This document shows, piece by piece, positions 34,427 through 55,293 of a DNA stretch of 64,000 bases (position 1 is its first letter; every line of letters begins with the position of its first letter). The notes under the pieces are model-generated. The model did no database searches and was not told the origin of the DNA. It saw only the letters and a list, made by a program, of their open reading frames with translations. Origin of the DNA: Pseudarthrobacter sp. NamE5 (GTDB lineage: Bacteria; Actinomycetota; Actinomycetes; Actinomycetales; Micrococcaceae). The stretch is from positions 186,001 to 250,000 of the forward strand of contig NZ_VAHO01000001.1 of assembly GCF_005796225.1 (NCBI RefSeq), written 5' to 3'. The position numbers and the translations under genes were made by a program.

Positions 34427-34443
34427 CCGTCGCACCTGAAACC

Positions 34444-34625
34444 CTCTCTCACTTGCTGCGGCCTTTTGGCGATCCCTTTATCACTTGCTGCGGCTTCTAA
34501 GGAAACCCTCTTTCACATCCCGCGGCAGTCTTAGACCCGCCTCCTGTCGACTGAGAGAGGGTTTTGGATTTTGCGGCGGTAAGTGATAGAGCGTTTCGGC
34601 TGAAGCCCCGGTAAGTGATGGAGCG
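34444..34625. repeat. 32-bp repeat array, three forward and three reverse units
   Basis: Forward cores begin at 34444, 34476 and 34508 (CTCTCTCAC, CTTTATCAC, CTCTTTCAC). Reverse cores (GTGAGAGAG-like) belong to units beginning at about 34549, 34581 and 34613. Spacing is exactly 32 bp in both sets. The rest of each unit is partly conserved (TTGCTGCGGC, then TTTTGGC). The array lies between the convergent hps remnant and GntR gene, ending 9 nt before the GntR stop. Confidence 0.8.
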
Positions 34626-43451: not shown

Positions 43452-44348
43452 ATGACTGCAATTGAGACTGAAACCGCTGTTTCCCAGCCGCTGACCACCG
43501 TGGAGCATGTCCTGACCCTGGACTGCTCCGAGTCGCCCGGCATTGTCCACGCCGTGTCCGGCTTCCTGCTGGAGCACGGCTGCGACATCATCGACAACCA
43601 GCAGTTCGGTGAGCGTTCCGAAGGGCATTTCTTCATGCGGGTGCATTTCGCGTCCGACGGCGATGCCTCCACAGTGGACACGCTGCGGGCCGCTTTCGGT
43701 CCGGTCGCGGAGCGCTTCGGGATGCGCTGGCGGCTGGAGCGGCAGGGTTCCAAGCGGCGGGTGCTGATTATGGTATCCAAGTTCGGGCACTGCCTGAACG
43801 ACCTGCTGTTCCGGGCGCGGATTGGTGAACTGCCCGTGGACGTGGTGGCCGTGGTGTCAAACCACACCGACCACCAGGCCCTGGTGGAATGGCACGGGAT
43901 TCCGTTCTTCCACGTGCCGGTGACGCCGGAGACCAAGCCGGCGGCTGAGGCGCGGCTGCTGGAACTGGTGGACGAGTTCGACGTGGAGCTTGTGGTGCTG
44001 GCCCGCTACATGCAGGTCCTCAGCGACAACCTGACCCGGAAGCTGGACGGGAAGGCGATCAACATCCACCACTCGTTCCTGCCCAGCTTCAAGGGGGCCA
44101 AGCCGTACCACCAGGCTTACGCGCGCGGCGTGAAGACTGTTGGTGCCACTGCGCACTACGTCAACGCGGAACTCGACGAAGGGCCAATTATCGCCCAGCA
44201 GGTGGTGGAAGTGGACCACACCTACGGACCCGAGGAGCTGGTGGCTGCCGGCCGCGACACCGAGTGCAAGGCCCTGTCCAACGCGGTCCGCTGGCACTGT
44301 GAGGGCCGGGTGATCCTGCAGGGCAACCGCACGGTGGTCCTCCGCTGA
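43452..44348 (+). CDS. purU: Formyltetrahydrofolate deformylase (second copy)
   Basis: A 298-aa PurU with ACT domain (about residues 18-95) and formyltransferase domain (VSKFGHCLNDLLFR, NIHHSFLPSFKGA, HYVNAELDEGPII). It is last gene of the glyA-sox-sdaA operon, starting 3 nt after the sdaA stop. It shares most conserved blocks with the 25804-26733 copy but differs at the N-terminus. Its job here is presumably to turn excess C1-folate into formate so that sarcosine oxidase has free THF. The formate may go to the FdhF-like enzyme at 19406. Confidence 0.95.
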   Translation: MTAIETETAVSQPLTTVEHVLTLDCSESPGIVHAVSGFLLEHGCDIIDNQQFGERSEGHFFMRVHFASDGDASTVDTLRAAFGPVAERFGMRWRLERQGSKRRVLIMVSKFGHCLNDLLFRARIGELPVDVVAVVSNHTDHQALVEWHGIPFFHVPVTPETKPAAEARLLELVDEFDVELVVLARYMQVLSDNLTRKLDGKAINIHHSFLPSFKGAKPYHQAYARGVKTVGATAHYVNAELDEGPIIAQQVVEVDHTYGPEELVAAGRDTECKALSNAVRWHCEGRVILQGNRTVVLR

Positions 44349-44368
44349 TTCCGCCCTCCCCACGGGCC

Positions 44369-44507
44369 CTCTCTCACTCGATGTGGCTTTTGGCCTGACG
44401 CTCTCTCACTCGATGTGGCTTTTGGCCTGACGCTCTCTCACTTAACGTGGCCTTTCCAGTGACGCTCTCTCACCCCGGTGGCCAGTTCAACGGCGAGGGA
44501 GCGTCAC
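44369..44507. repeat. 32-bp repeat array, four forward units plus one reverse core
   Basis: CTCTCTCAC cores at 44369, 44401, 44433 and 44465, spaced exactly 32 bp. The first two units are identical over all 32 bp. A reverse core (GAGGGAGCGTCAC, 44495-44507) pairs 12 of 13 with 44459-44471, giving a hairpin between the convergent purU and endonuclease genes. Confidence 0.85.
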
Positions 44508-44545
44508 GGCTTTAAGGGGCTACTGAACGAAATTTCTGCCGCCGC

Positions 44546-45499
44546 TTAACCGCTGGCAAACCCTGATGCCTGCGGATGGTCTAGCCAGCCGTTCCGCAGT
44601 GCCCGTTTTATTCGTTGCACCGCACGCTGAAAATCGTCGGCAAGGTCTTCCTTATCAAATACAAGCACCGTCCAGCCAGCTGATTCGAAGGCCTTATTCC
44701 GGCTCCTGTCACTAAAGATCTGCGCCTCAGCGAGGTGATGTCCGCCGTCGTACTGGATTGCAAGGTGGCGATGACGATAGCCGAGATCGGCTGACGGCGA
44801 CCTCGTGTCGCCGGCGCGCAACGGCACCTGAAGTTCCGGTTCGGGTAAGCCCGCGCTGACGATAGCCAGCCGGAGCAGCGATTCCGGGGCAGAATCGGCA
44901 CCCACCCGCATCAGCTCCAACGCTTCGCGGGCCCTGACGATGCCTTGGAGATTCGGGTGGCGCCCCACCAGGACGCGCAGTCCCGGCAAGGTGTCATAGG
45001 GCTGCGTCCTTCCCTCGAAATCCACCCGCGGGATGCGGATCAGTTCGTCACCCATGCTCACCAGATCATTGAGCGGCAGCATCCGTGCCAGATCGAGCCA
45101 GGTGCGGGACCGTGTGCTCAGGCTGATCCCGTCAACCTCTTCAACCTCATCTTCAAGGGCCAGGACGGTATGCCCGAATATCCCCTTTCGGCGGACCGAC
45201 GGCAGCACACGCGGCTTGCTGAGATGCAGCTCTGTGGAATCTGCCAGCCACGGCGGCAGCACTTGGCACCGGAGCCGCGCCGCGGTCACGTGTGAGATCC
45301 AGGCTCCGGGAGACGCAGCGGACAACGCCCTGGCGGCGCCTTCCAGATCGAAGTCCCAGTCCGCCGGGCGGTAAAGACCTCGGCCCACGTTGACCACATC
45401 CTTGCGGCGGAGTCTATCCAGTGTGAGGCCGGAAGCCCTGGCAGAGCTGAACGTGAACGGATCCTTCGCCAAGGGCGGGGGCAGGACTTGCTTTCGCAT
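44546..45499 (-). CDS. AbiEi-like / DUF559 (Vsr-fold) putative endonuclease
   Basis: A 317-aa protein. The N-terminal part (about residues 10-75: ARASGLTLDRLRRKDVVNVGRGLYR) resembles the AbiEi-type winged-helix antitoxin domain, the middle is family-specific, and the C-terminus (about 205-305) is DUF559, related to very-short-patch-repair nucleases. Putative catalytic residues are Glu206, Asp238 (ADLGYR) and the YDG-x-H block at 250-254. Such fusions are abundant in actinobacteria; function is unproven. The gene is flanked by inverted 32-bp repeat arrays (44369-44507 and 45571-45645). The start ATG has no strong ribosome site. Confidence 0.75.
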   Translation of the reverse strand: MRKQVLPPPLAKDPFTFSSARASGLTLDRLRRKDVVNVGRGLYRPADWDFDLEGAARALSAASPGAWISHVTAARLRCQVLPPWLADSTELHLSKPRVLPSVRRKGIFGHTVLALEDEVEEVDGISLSTRSRTWLDLARMLPLNDLVSMGDELIRIPRVDFEGRTQPYDTLPGLRVLVGRHPNLQGIVRAREALELMRVGADSAPESLLRLAIVSAGLPEPELQVPLRAGDTRSPSADLGYRHRHLAIQYDGGHHLAEAQIFSDRSRNKAFESAGWTVLVFDKEDLADDFQRAVQRIKRALRNGWLDHPQASGFASG

Positions 45500-45570
45500 G
45501 CTGGCATTGTGCCCCGGGACGGTAGGAAGTTGCAGAAGTTATCCACAGGTCTGCCGCTGGGCGTTCAGAG

Positions 45571-45645
45571 GTGTAAGAGGGATGCCGGAAAACCCGCGTT
45601 AAGTGAGAGAGGATCGCCGGAAAACCGACGTCAAGTGAGAGAGCG
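45571..45645. repeat. 32-bp repeat array, three reverse units
   Basis: Reverse cores begin at 45571 (GTGTAAGAG), 45603 (GTGAGAGAG) and 45635 (GTGAGAGAG), exactly 32 bp apart, with shared GGAAAACCG-CG between them. It is oriented opposite to the array at 44369-44507, so the two enclose the endonuclease gene. Confidence 0.85.
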
Positions 45646-45740
45646 TGGGAGGGGGACGATTGCCCACCGCGTGCCGGCTGGTGCTGCGGTCCGGGGCGTG
45701 GCAGTACCGGTTGTCGGAGGGCGGGGCTACACTGAAGTAA

Positions 45741-45756
45741 TCGAACATATTTTCGA
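45741..45756. promoter_or_regulatory. LexA (SOS) box upstream of umuDC
   Basis: TCGAACATATTTTCGA matches the actinobacterial LexA consensus TCGAAC-N4-GTTCGA at 11 of 12 defined positions, ending 13 nt before the umuD start. It implies induction by DNA damage. Confidence 0.8.
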
Positions 45757-45769
45757 ATAAGGGTGTGTT

Positions 45770-46201
45770 GTGGGCGTTATTGTCGGTCCCCGCGTGATAG
45801 ATGCGGGCGCCTCGTTGTTCTCCGTGCCGATCTCCCCTGTGGCCGTTGCCGCGGGGTTCCCATCACCGGCACAGGACTACTTCGACGGCCGGATTGACCT
45901 GAATGCCCACCTGATCAAGGACATCACCAGTACTTTCGTGGTCCGGGTTACCGGAGATTCCATGGAAGGGGCCGGAATCAGCGACGGCGACGAACTGATC
46001 GTCAACCGCGCCCTCGAGCCCAAGGACGGATCCGTGGTGATCGCCGTGCTGGACGGCGAACTGACGGTCAAGCGCCTGCGCATCACCGCAGCCGGAGTAG
46101 TGCTGCAGGCGGAAAACCCCAAGTATCCGGACATCAGGGTTTCTGCCCTGTCCGACCTCACCGTGTGGGGTGTGGCCACGAGGTGCCTCCATCATGTCTA
46201 A
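45770..46201 (+). CDS. umuD: UmuD-like S24 self-cleaving protein
   Basis: A 143-aa S24 peptidase-fold protein. The Ser-Lys dyad is Ser64 (VTGDSMEGAGI) and Lys101 (GELTVKRL), with a probable autocleavage site at Ala28-Gly29 (AAGFPSP). It becomes active as UmuD' after RecA-stimulated cleavage and partners UmuC in translesion synthesis. The GTG start follows TAAGGGTG. It overlaps umuC by 8 nt. The length matches UmuD (about 139-145 aa). Confidence 0.9.
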   Translation: MGVIVGPRVIDAGASLFSVPISPVAVAAGFPSPAQDYFDGRIDLNAHLIKDITSTFVVRVTGDSMEGAGISDGDELIVNRALEPKDGSVVIAVLDGELTVKRLRITAAGVVLQAENPKYPDIRVSALSDLTVWGVATRCLHHV

Positions 46202-47492
46202 ACCGGTCCTGATGCGGCAGATGCCGCAGATCGCCCATGTGGACGTGAACTGTTTTTATGCCTCAGCCGAGCGGGCGTTCGATCCCTCGCTTGAGGGGCG
46301 GCCGCTGGTGGTCCTTTCCAACAACGACGGCTGTGCCGTCACCCGCTCCCCCGAGGCCAAAGCCCTGGGAATCCCTACCGGTGAGCCCTGGTTCAAGCTT
46401 GCGCCCAGGGCAAAGGAATGGGGCCTGGTGGCGAAATCGAGCAACTACGAACTCTACGGGGACATCAGTGCCAGGGTCATGGAACTGCTGGGCAGGCATT
46501 CCGCCTGGATGGAGGTCTACAGCATCGACGAGGCCTTCCTGGGCGTGAAAGGCGAACCGGAACAGCTGCTGGCCTTGGGCCGCAGAATCAAAGACGCAGT
46601 GCGGCGGCACGTGGGAGTACCTGTCTGTGTGGGAATTGCCCCCACCAAAACTTTGGCGAAGCTGTGCAACAAATGGGCCAAGAACAACCCGGCGTTCCGC
46701 GGAGTGTGCCACTGGGACGGTGTTCCGGGCCCGGCGCGCGAAGCGCTGCTGGCCCGGCTGTCCGTGGAGGAGGTCTGGGGCATCGCCGGCAGGCTCACCA
46801 GGCGCCTGAACCTCCTGGGCATCTTCACGGTCCTGGACCTTCTCCGCGCCGACCCCGTGGCCATCCGGGACAAGTTTTCGGTGGTTCTCATGCGCACCGT
46901 CCTGGAACTGCGCGGCACTCCGTGCATCCCCATGGAGGAGGAGCGCATTGGCCGGGACCAGCTCATCTTCTCGCGATCCTTCTCCACTCCGGTCACCAGC
47001 GTGGAAGGCCTCCGGCAGGTGCTGGGCATCTATGGCCAGCAGGCGAGTGCGAGGCTCTCCAAACACGGGCTCCAGGCGAAGGTCCTTACCGCTTTCGCGG
47101 CCACTTCCCCGTTCCGGCAGCATGAACAGGCCTATCCCTCAGTGTGCGTGTCGTTGCCGATGCCCACGGCGGATCCACTCCTGTTGACCAAAGCCGCGCA
47201 TGCGCTGCTGCCCCACATCCGGGATGGACTCAGGTACGCCAAGGCCGGGCTCATGCTCACGGACCTTCGTCCCACGGGCAACCAGCCGCCGCTGAAACCG
47301 TTCGAGAACCGTCATGAGGAGCGGGGCATCGGGCCCCTGCTGGAGGATGTCAGCCGCCGCTTCGGCCGCGGCTCCATCGGTCTGGGCCATGCCGGCATCA
47401 AGACCGGGCTGGACTGGACCATGAAACGGGACATGCGCTCGCCGCGGTACACCACCCACTGGGACGAGCTCCCCCTGGTCAGAGCTGCATGA
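46194..47492 (+). CDS. umuC: UmuC-like Y-family DNA polymerase
   Basis: A 432-aa error-prone translesion polymerase. Catalytic acids are Asp17 (HVDVNCFYAS) and the Asp-Glu pair of YSIDEAF (near residue 111). The DUF4113-like C-terminus (RYTTHWDELPLV) is typical of UmuC. Thumb and little-finger regions are complete. ATG 46194 overlaps umuD; upstream codons are umuD in another frame. The SOS box before umuD should control both. Confidence 0.93.
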   Translation: MSKPVLMRQMPQIAHVDVNCFYASAERAFDPSLEGRPLVVLSNNDGCAVTRSPEAKALGIPTGEPWFKLAPRAKEWGLVAKSSNYELYGDISARVMELLGRHSAWMEVYSIDEAFLGVKGEPEQLLALGRRIKDAVRRHVGVPVCVGIAPTKTLAKLCNKWAKNNPAFRGVCHWDGVPGPAREALLARLSVEEVWGIAGRLTRRLNLLGIFTVLDLLRADPVAIRDKFSVVLMRTVLELRGTPCIPMEEERIGRDQLIFSRSFSTPVTSVEGLRQVLGIYGQQASARLSKHGLQAKVLTAFAATSPFRQHEQAYPSVCVSLPMPTADPLLLTKAAHALLPHIRDGLRYAKAGLMLTDLRPTGNQPPLKPFENRHEERGIGPLLEDVSRRFGRGSIGLGHAGIKTGLDWTMKRDMRSPRYTTHWDELPLVRAA

Positions 47493-55164: not shown

Positions 55165-55177
55165 CCCGCCCAGCACG

Positions 55178-55272
55178 CTCTCTCAGTTGATGCGCCATTT
55201 TGGCCATCGCTCTCTCACTTTCCACAAGGAAGTGAGAGAGCGATGGCGTGAAACACGCTTTAACTGAGAGAG
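55178..55272. repeat. 32-bp repeat array, two forward and two reverse units, nested palindrome
   Basis: Forward cores at 55178 and 55210, reverse cores at 55232 and 55264, each pair exactly 32 bp apart. The inner pair forms a perfect 18-bp hairpin (55203-55220 with 55230-55247, 9-nt loop). The outer pair matches over at least 11 bp. It lies between convergent genes and probably also terminates transcription. Confidence 0.85.
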
Positions 55273-55293
55273 GGTCGAAGGGCAAGGGATGGG

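Follow-up and report, generated by a model that had tools for sequence, protein, structure and literature searches.

A putative AbiEi-headed nuclease lies between inverted arrays of a dispersed 32-bp repeat in Pseudarthrobacter

In the genome of Pseudarthrobacter sp. NamE5, a putative nuclease gene is enclosed by inward-pointing arrays of a dispersed 32-bp repeat, and comparison with related loci leads us to conclude that nuclease and repeats very probably form a partnership. This conclusion is supported by most scorable members of the gene family sitting between inward repeats, by repeats whose type differs from one nuclease subfamily to the next and which are scattered through the genomes of the matching subfamily, and by sites that exist both with and without the gene. 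Our best explanation, to which we assign a probability of roughly 0.55, is a repeat-recognising nuclease with the 32-bp units as its cognate sites, working in a REPIN-RAYT-like manner but with an unrelated enzyme; binding, cutting and spread are inferred. A first-pass annotation had suggested, as a hypothesis, that a nuclease of its own serves the repeat family, much as RAYTs serve REP elements, but with a different kind of enzyme. Flank enrichment and a unit type that follows the nuclease clade lend support to that proposal, albeit without binding or cleavage data.

The locus was found in a stretch of 64,000 nucleotides (the window; G000:C2:186001-250000) of the 4.06-Mb genome. From purU (43452-44348) to umuDC (from 45770), it comprises, in this order, forward 32-bp units, a hairpin, the minus-strand nuclease gene, its promoter region (which includes a perfect DnaA box) and the reverse units; read in gene direction, inward units are followed by promoter, gene, hairpin and again inward units. 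The gene (44546-45499, minus strand) encodes 317 amino acids, and its closest named homologue, at 93%, is from Pseudarthrobacter sp. NamB4. On its 3′ side lie three tandem forward units (44368-44463, plus strand; cores at 44369, 44401 and 44433) and on its 5′ side the reverse units (45571-45644, minus strand; cores at 45571, 45603 and 45635). The layout initially annotated—four forward and three reverse cores with a 32-bp period on both sides of the open reading frame—is present, but only three of the forward units are full ones, the fourth core (44465) being the left arm of the hairpin (44461-44505). Likewise, the description as an exact 32-bp repeat is true of the first two forward units, which are 100% identical over 41 nt, but not of the third, at 80% identity, nor of the reverse units, two of which are 75% identical to each other. 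The hairpin, recognised by sequence at the gene’s 3′ end and seen again in homologous loci, carries an intact core, CTCTCTCAC, in its outer arm and an altered core (CTCCCTCGC, other strand) in its gene-proximal arm.

Two further window loci, noted before for a forward-plus-reverse layout without a gene, do exist, with diverged units. One is an array at 34443-34619, identified by sequence; the other is a palindrome at 55177-55280, composed of a unit, the hairpin centre CTCTCTCAC-N13-GTGAGAGAG and an inverted unit, and identified by sequence plus RNA folding (55170-55280: -67.6 kcal/mol, z -10.9). Chance repetition was rejected: with up to one mismatch, GCTCTCTCAC matched the window 12 times versus 5.05 ± 1.92 times in shuffled sequences, none of 100 shuffles reaching 12. 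Genome-wide, 29 exact tandem pairs of the unit were counted, compared with none for the pattern read backwards. A CRISPR array was set aside without a dedicated search, the units being near-identical tandem repeats that lack unique spacers. Arrays are located at gene ends, several of them between convergent genes, and a rough ORF estimate placed 18 of the 21 array sites of this genome in intergenic regions.

Upstream of the nuclease gene, a -10-like CACAAT (45506-45511, minus strand) ends 6 nt before the ATG; a similar AAT-containing hexamer precedes the start in other loci displayed, and the element is a possible leaderless promoter, an inference from sequence. It is accompanied by a perfect DnaA box at 45539-45547 (TGTGGATAA on the gene’s strand, TTATCCACA on the plus strand). 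Of the 80 homologous loci, 77 carry the same TGTGGATAA no more than 130 nt upstream of the gene, and so do 56 of the 60 paralogues; elsewhere in the first locus set, it does not occur on either strand in 592,515 bases, the gene excluded. Among distant homologues, only 6 of 20 had the box. That DnaA acts at this site is inferred.

The encoded protein had been called AbiEi/DUF559-like, a designation borne out by a PADLOC match to AbiEi in residues 15-140 (E 3.2e-7) and a Pfam match to DUF559 (PF04480) in residues 242-301, at 25.2 bits against a cut-off of 20.6. REase_MTES_1575 (PF18741) remained under its cut-off of 38.2 with 22 bits, and the Pfam search returned no transposase match. An AlphaFold2 model from 70 aligned sequences (the window gene, 68 of the 80 homologous loci and L031, a further homologue described below) reached a mean pLDDT of 89.7. 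VIA-align placed the AbiEi antitoxin 6y8q on residues 2-198 of this model (Z 11.1, rmsd 5.3 over 177 residues) and the catalytic domain of the homing endonuclease I-Bth0305I, 3r3p, on residues 203-306 (Z 11.4, rmsd 2.5 over 96 residues), followed by Vsr (1cw0, Z 9.3). Foldseek found no match to the model at E 0.001 or better; the fold assignment therefore rests on VIA-align, Foldseek alone being weak. As predicted by the model, the gene product joins an AbiEi-like DNA-binding head to a tail with the Vsr/homing-endonuclease (EDxHD-type) fold.

Four residues, E206, D238, H255 and D264, are invariant in all 70 aligned rows and correspond, by an inferred mapping, to the EDxHD motif. One motif residue is glutamate in 3hrl and 3r3p and glutamine in 78 of 78 members of the window gene’s subfamily; distant homologues have glutamate at this position in 18 of 20 cases, and a simple pattern applied to 60 paralogues returned 28 with glutamine, 26 with glutamate and 6 with another residue. 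Judging from sequence, a nuclease with glutamine here may nick, cut weakly or only bind, and the conserved exchange weakens our inference of cutting and recombinational spread. Comparison of the window gene with five relatives yielded dN/dS values of 0.08-0.15.

Our search found 130 relatives, the best 80 of which were taken as homologous loci, and inward-pointing arrays recur at the gene edges across them. With five loci excluded for short flanks, 48 of the 75 scorable loci carried at least three inward copies of one 9-mer (1 mismatch) on each side, as compared to 2 of 268 dummy intervals from the same DNA. A looser criterion of at least two copies per side discriminated poorly (66/75 loci versus 68/268 dummies). 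The expectation that arrays would flank the DUF559/AbiEi family more often than chance intervals was thereby met, and the paralogues described below (45/58 versus 8/268) met it as well.

Grouped by neighbour clusters, the 80 loci occupy three places: purU-umuD (16), fhs-ino1 (51, requiring only that one or both neighbours could be identified) and HAD-hydrolase/DAHP-synthase (13). Four fhs-ino1 loci are inverted (L067, L071, L078 and L083). The name ino1 rests on PF01658; the other neighbour we take to be fhs from its C-terminal sequence, recognised by eye. A general rule placing the nuclease behind formyl-tetrahydrofolate genes (purU, purN, fhs) fails for other paralogues. Phage or plasmid cargo was likewise rejected, as just one phage record of 50,697 and six plasmid records of 72,556 contained a relative, none of these relatives reaching 60% identity. 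One contig labelled Sporosarcina beigongshangi (L105) contains an Arthrobacter-like nuclease with the downstream neighbour seen in Arthrobacter; this assembly is possibly mislabelled or contaminated.

The units follow a frame of roughly ACGC, four variable letters, TCAC and then type-specific letters, the variable letters of the core being TCTC, TCCC, TCGC, CCGG, TTCC, CCGC, GCGC, GCCA and others. Mapped onto the nuclease tree, core type required 15 changes over 65 tips and 11 states, versus a mean of 29.5 and a minimum of 27 in 300 shuffles. Two loci with broken reading frames (L107 and L110) had been dropped from tree and alignment alike, and of the 79 tree rows, 14 were left out for lacking three copies of any one core. 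For 38 loci, an fhs tree fits the core types nearly as well (13 changes versus 11 on the nuclease tree), implying that shared descent accounts for part of the match.

Units were then counted in 50 genomes, which cover 50 of the 80 loci; all contain some family member, leaving no family-free control. For four unit types, presence in a genome largely coincides with that of the matching nuclease clade, the exceptions being few. TTRAYG units, the type of the window (A), amounted to 10-81 copies in 12 of 12 genomes with an A-clade nuclease and to at least 10 in only 2 of the 38 others, G037 (22) and G044 (29); smaller counts without an A-clade nuclease came from G036 (9), G047 (6), G014 (4), G015 and G050 (3 each), G016 (2) and G019 (1). 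In G037, an A-type array behind purU is followed by what look, by eye, like nuclease gene remnants. All five genomes with the CTTTGG-type nuclease have CTTTGG units outside the nuclease locus (2, 1, 1, 3 and, in the fifth, most of 31), compared with 2 of 45 genomes without it (13 in G048, one in G019); within A-clade genomes, they accompany a CTTTGG-type nuclease in 2 of 2 cases and are missing from all 10 genomes that lack it. TATG units number 9-30 in 5/5 genomes with the matching nuclease versus 4, 1 and 1 in 3/45 others, and TTCC units 11, 4 and 4 in 3/3 versus a single copy in 1/47. The exceptions, in which a unit type lacks its nuclease, are G044 and G048 and, with fewer copies, G036 and G047.

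Two observations stand beside these counts. Besides its 29 A-type units, G044 (L205) has an array of the CCCA type behind purU; a matching nuclease was not found there, and the case is unexplained. In G021 (C46:66077-70183), three forward and three reverse TTCC-type units surround ~3.9 kb outside the known nuclease locus.

One chromosomal site can carry either a bare palindrome or a palindrome with the gene inside. Behind purU, orthologues at 83% identity or above could be read in 17 of the 22 genomes without the gene at this place (five had no such match, and 23 loci beyond match L221, with weaker purU-like matches, were left unread). A script detected an array in 7 of these 17, inspection by eye added two further units in G021, and the other nine had none. 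At the fhs site, a gene-less array was present in 10 of 16 genomes, and the fhs-ino1 place of the window genome itself is a gene-less palindrome of the window type (L244). Across 17 gene-less arrays, the own-type rank among 49 was 1-10 in 14 cases, 20 in G020 and 43 in G044, with one array not rankable; this is weak evidence, many types sharing the TCTC core.

Intact centres of the TCTC type, CTCTCTCAC-N3..30-GTGAGAGAG, totalled 162 in 25 genomes (forward counts summed) against 0 in the control. None of 36 TCTC-type nuclease loci had one, versus 6 of 20 gene-less palindromes (Fisher 0.0012), which is what would be expected if the gene or an altered hairpin spoils the target. These 20 palindromes had been chosen by eye via their outer units, from the rows displayed, and in another 6 of the 20 the centre was symmetrical but altered (GCTCTATCAC), rendering the idea of immunity only suggestive. 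Applied to 73 loci, a generic hairpin finder located the unit core in both arms in 4, in the outer arm only in 12 and in neither arm in 57, although several hairpins it picked were not the relevant one; where the relevant hairpin was picked, at 13 purU-site loci, the gene-proximal arm was altered in all 13. Hairpin-based immunity of the occupied copy is therefore upheld only in part.

A second pairing of gene and palindrome was found in the window genome. The next homologue, L031 (G000:C46:137925-138842; 38% identity to the window nuclease), sits between two copies of another dispersed palindrome of 58 bp, given by CCCAACTAGGTAGCAGCAGATGTC plus its inverse and showing ACTAGGTAGCAGCAGATGTC on both sides of the gene, whose stop codon lies inside the downstream copy. 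Allowing up to three mismatches, half-sites of this palindrome occur 26 times in the genome, compared with 0 in the control. Beyond this genome, the 50 genomes contained 182 family matches, of which 54 are closely related to the window gene. From 60 lower-scoring matches in 37 genomes, we obtained 58 paralogues after leaving out two with short flanks. Both flanks shared an inverted word of at least 12 letters in 45 of the 58. By comparison, such a word occurred in 8 of 268 dummy intervals and, among 290 controls of each kind, in 17 mismatched pairs and 2 shuffles. Few of them show 32-bp tandem periodicity; single palindromes mostly take its place, and 32-bp arrays typify the first locus set. 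In L189 and L201, paralogues lie in opposite orientations between the same two genes, presumably glpX-like and FemX-like.

With respect to known systems, the repeats resemble REPs and REPINs in being dispersed, mostly intergenic palindromes of matching type, and the enzyme resembles RAYTs in being chromosomal, flanked by repeats in inverted orientation and tied to a repeat type. The window repeats differ in forming 32-bp tandem units, and the enzymes differ in kind: RAYTs are IS200/IS605-like Y1 HUH tyrosine transposases, whereas the window protein combines an AbiEi head with a Vsr-fold nuclease. Having no Y1 transposase, the system is not a member of the REPIN-RAYT group. In its accessible sections, Di Nocera 2013 (PMC3733652) describes RAYTs and gives no dedicated transposase for CGTC REPs; the RepRanger paper (PMC12306157) reports palindrome counts for Arthrobacter livingstonensis, and its main text mentions neither RAYT nor nuclease. 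Closest in fold, I-Bth0305I was among the two best model matches and shares the Vsr-like catalytic fold; it forms a dimer on a very long target, nearly 60 bp in length (PMC3943268), and a gene that interrupts its own target follows a homing pattern. Unlike I-Bth0305I, the window system is chromosomal, has many dispersed sites and an AbiEi head, and has glutamine where 3r3p has glutamate. As far as the model goes, the protein has the fold, but not a demonstrated activity, of EDxHD homing endonucleases. The head, in turn, resembles the AbiEi antitoxin of type IV toxin-antitoxin systems, with 6y8q matching residues 2-198, and AbiEi binds promoter inverted repeats extending to 23 bp, TGTTGCTTTTA-N27-TAAAAGCAACA (PMC3985639). 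In contrast to AbiEi, the window gene is fused to a nuclease, and its repeats flank both gene sides and are spread genome-wide. No AbiEii nucleotidyltransferase lies beside the gene, the neighbours being purU and umuDC, so it is not part of an AbiE toxin-antitoxin pair. The C-terminal domain falls above the DUF559 and under the MTES_1575 cut-off, but Pfam lists DUF559 as of unknown function and names no repeat partner. A literature search of titles and abstracts, with most subscription journals outside its coverage, returned nothing linking dispersed repeats to DUF559 or AbiEi nucleases.

A cut-and-repair mechanism could accommodate these data. The AbiEi heads of a dimer would bind inverted units, and the Vsr-like tail would nick or cut the intact palindrome of unit, hairpin and inverted unit; AbiEi binding to inverted repeats and I-Bth0305I dimerisation on nearly 60 bp make a dimer on the intact palindrome plausible. 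Repair from another array would copy units, keeping them alike while changing their number, and might occasionally carry the gene into or out of a palindrome. An occupied copy would resist cutting, given that the gene parts the inverted units by ~1.1 kb and that the core of the neighbouring hairpin is altered, and the DnaA box might couple expression to replication, a time at which a template for repair is at hand. Such a model would account for the uniformity of units within each genome and for their varying number, and would explain why a site may be bare or occupied and why the gene is found in either orientation at a single place. Cutting, repair and recombinational spread all remain inferences, with no binding, cutting or movement observed.

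Other readings of the locus deserve consideration. The protein might be a repeat-binding regulator or chromosome organiser with a weakened nuclease, in which case the palindromes would serve it as operators, as terminators or as sites of DNA folding, and the gene would be autoregulated through the arrays at its flanks. We regard this as unlikely, though not to be dismissed: the universal glutamate-to-glutamine exchange in the subfamily fits it, as do the intergenic position of most arrays, the strong RNA hairpin at 55170-55280 and the repression by AbiEi of its own promoter via inverted repeats (PMC3985639). The four invariant residues argue instead for a retained active site; genomes with the same clade differ in copy number, from 10 to 81, and no terminator-like site was found in 43800-46300. 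It is rather doubtful that the enzyme moves the repeats by true transposition, with RAYT-like hairpin excision and insertion in place of cutting and recombinational repair. Such movement would suit a genomic picture much like that of REPIN-RAYT systems, with chromosomal genes mostly at few conserved places and dispersed hairpins (PMC8049555), but the predicted fold is Vsr-like rather than Y1 HUH.

Two further readings fare worse. A solitary defence or toxin-antitoxin gene, composed of an AbiEi head and a restriction-like nuclease and using the repeats as operator or decoy sites, is suggested by the PADLOC hit and the weak REase_MTES_1575 match; we consider it improbable given purU and umuDC as neighbours in the absence of AbiEii, the scarcity of relatives in phage and plasmid records, and the dispersed cognate repeats that it leaves unexplained. 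Hardly tenable, and already disfavoured, is the notion of ordinary terminator-like intergenic repeats with the gene as a passenger and the type match reflecting shared ancestry. Arrays at gene ends, several between convergent genes, and the near-equal fit of the fhs tree speak for it, but it is contradicted by the excess of flanked loci over dummy intervals, by paralogues that have other palindromes on both sides, and by CTTTGG units restricted, within the A clade, to the genomes with that nuclease.

For some of the palindromes dispersed in bacterial genomes, no enzyme that spreads them is known. Should the nuclease indeed drive the arrays, Actinomycetes would possess a REPIN-RAYT-like system of their own, based on an unrelated enzyme; a function could then be assigned to part of DUF559, and nature would have supplied a series of nucleases whose changing target specificities are readable. 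More tentatively, and at somewhat less than even odds, AbiEi-headed Vsr-fold nucleases across Actinomycetes might be selfish or domesticated systems, each driving and homogenising its own palindrome by cutting and recombination, with the gene homing between palindromes and the head switching specificity—a second, independently evolved counterpart of REPIN-RAYT. At E 1e-25, homologues turned up in 61 of 197 genomes of the class, representing 30 of 90 genera. Of 20 distant homologue loci, a small sample chosen from the better-scoring rows, 9 shared an inverted word of at least 12 letters between their flanks, such as GTTGATCATGGAGAAATCGGCC.

Palindromes containing GATCATGG recur by distant actinobacterial homologues (L276, L279, L284, L285, L287, L288 and L291).
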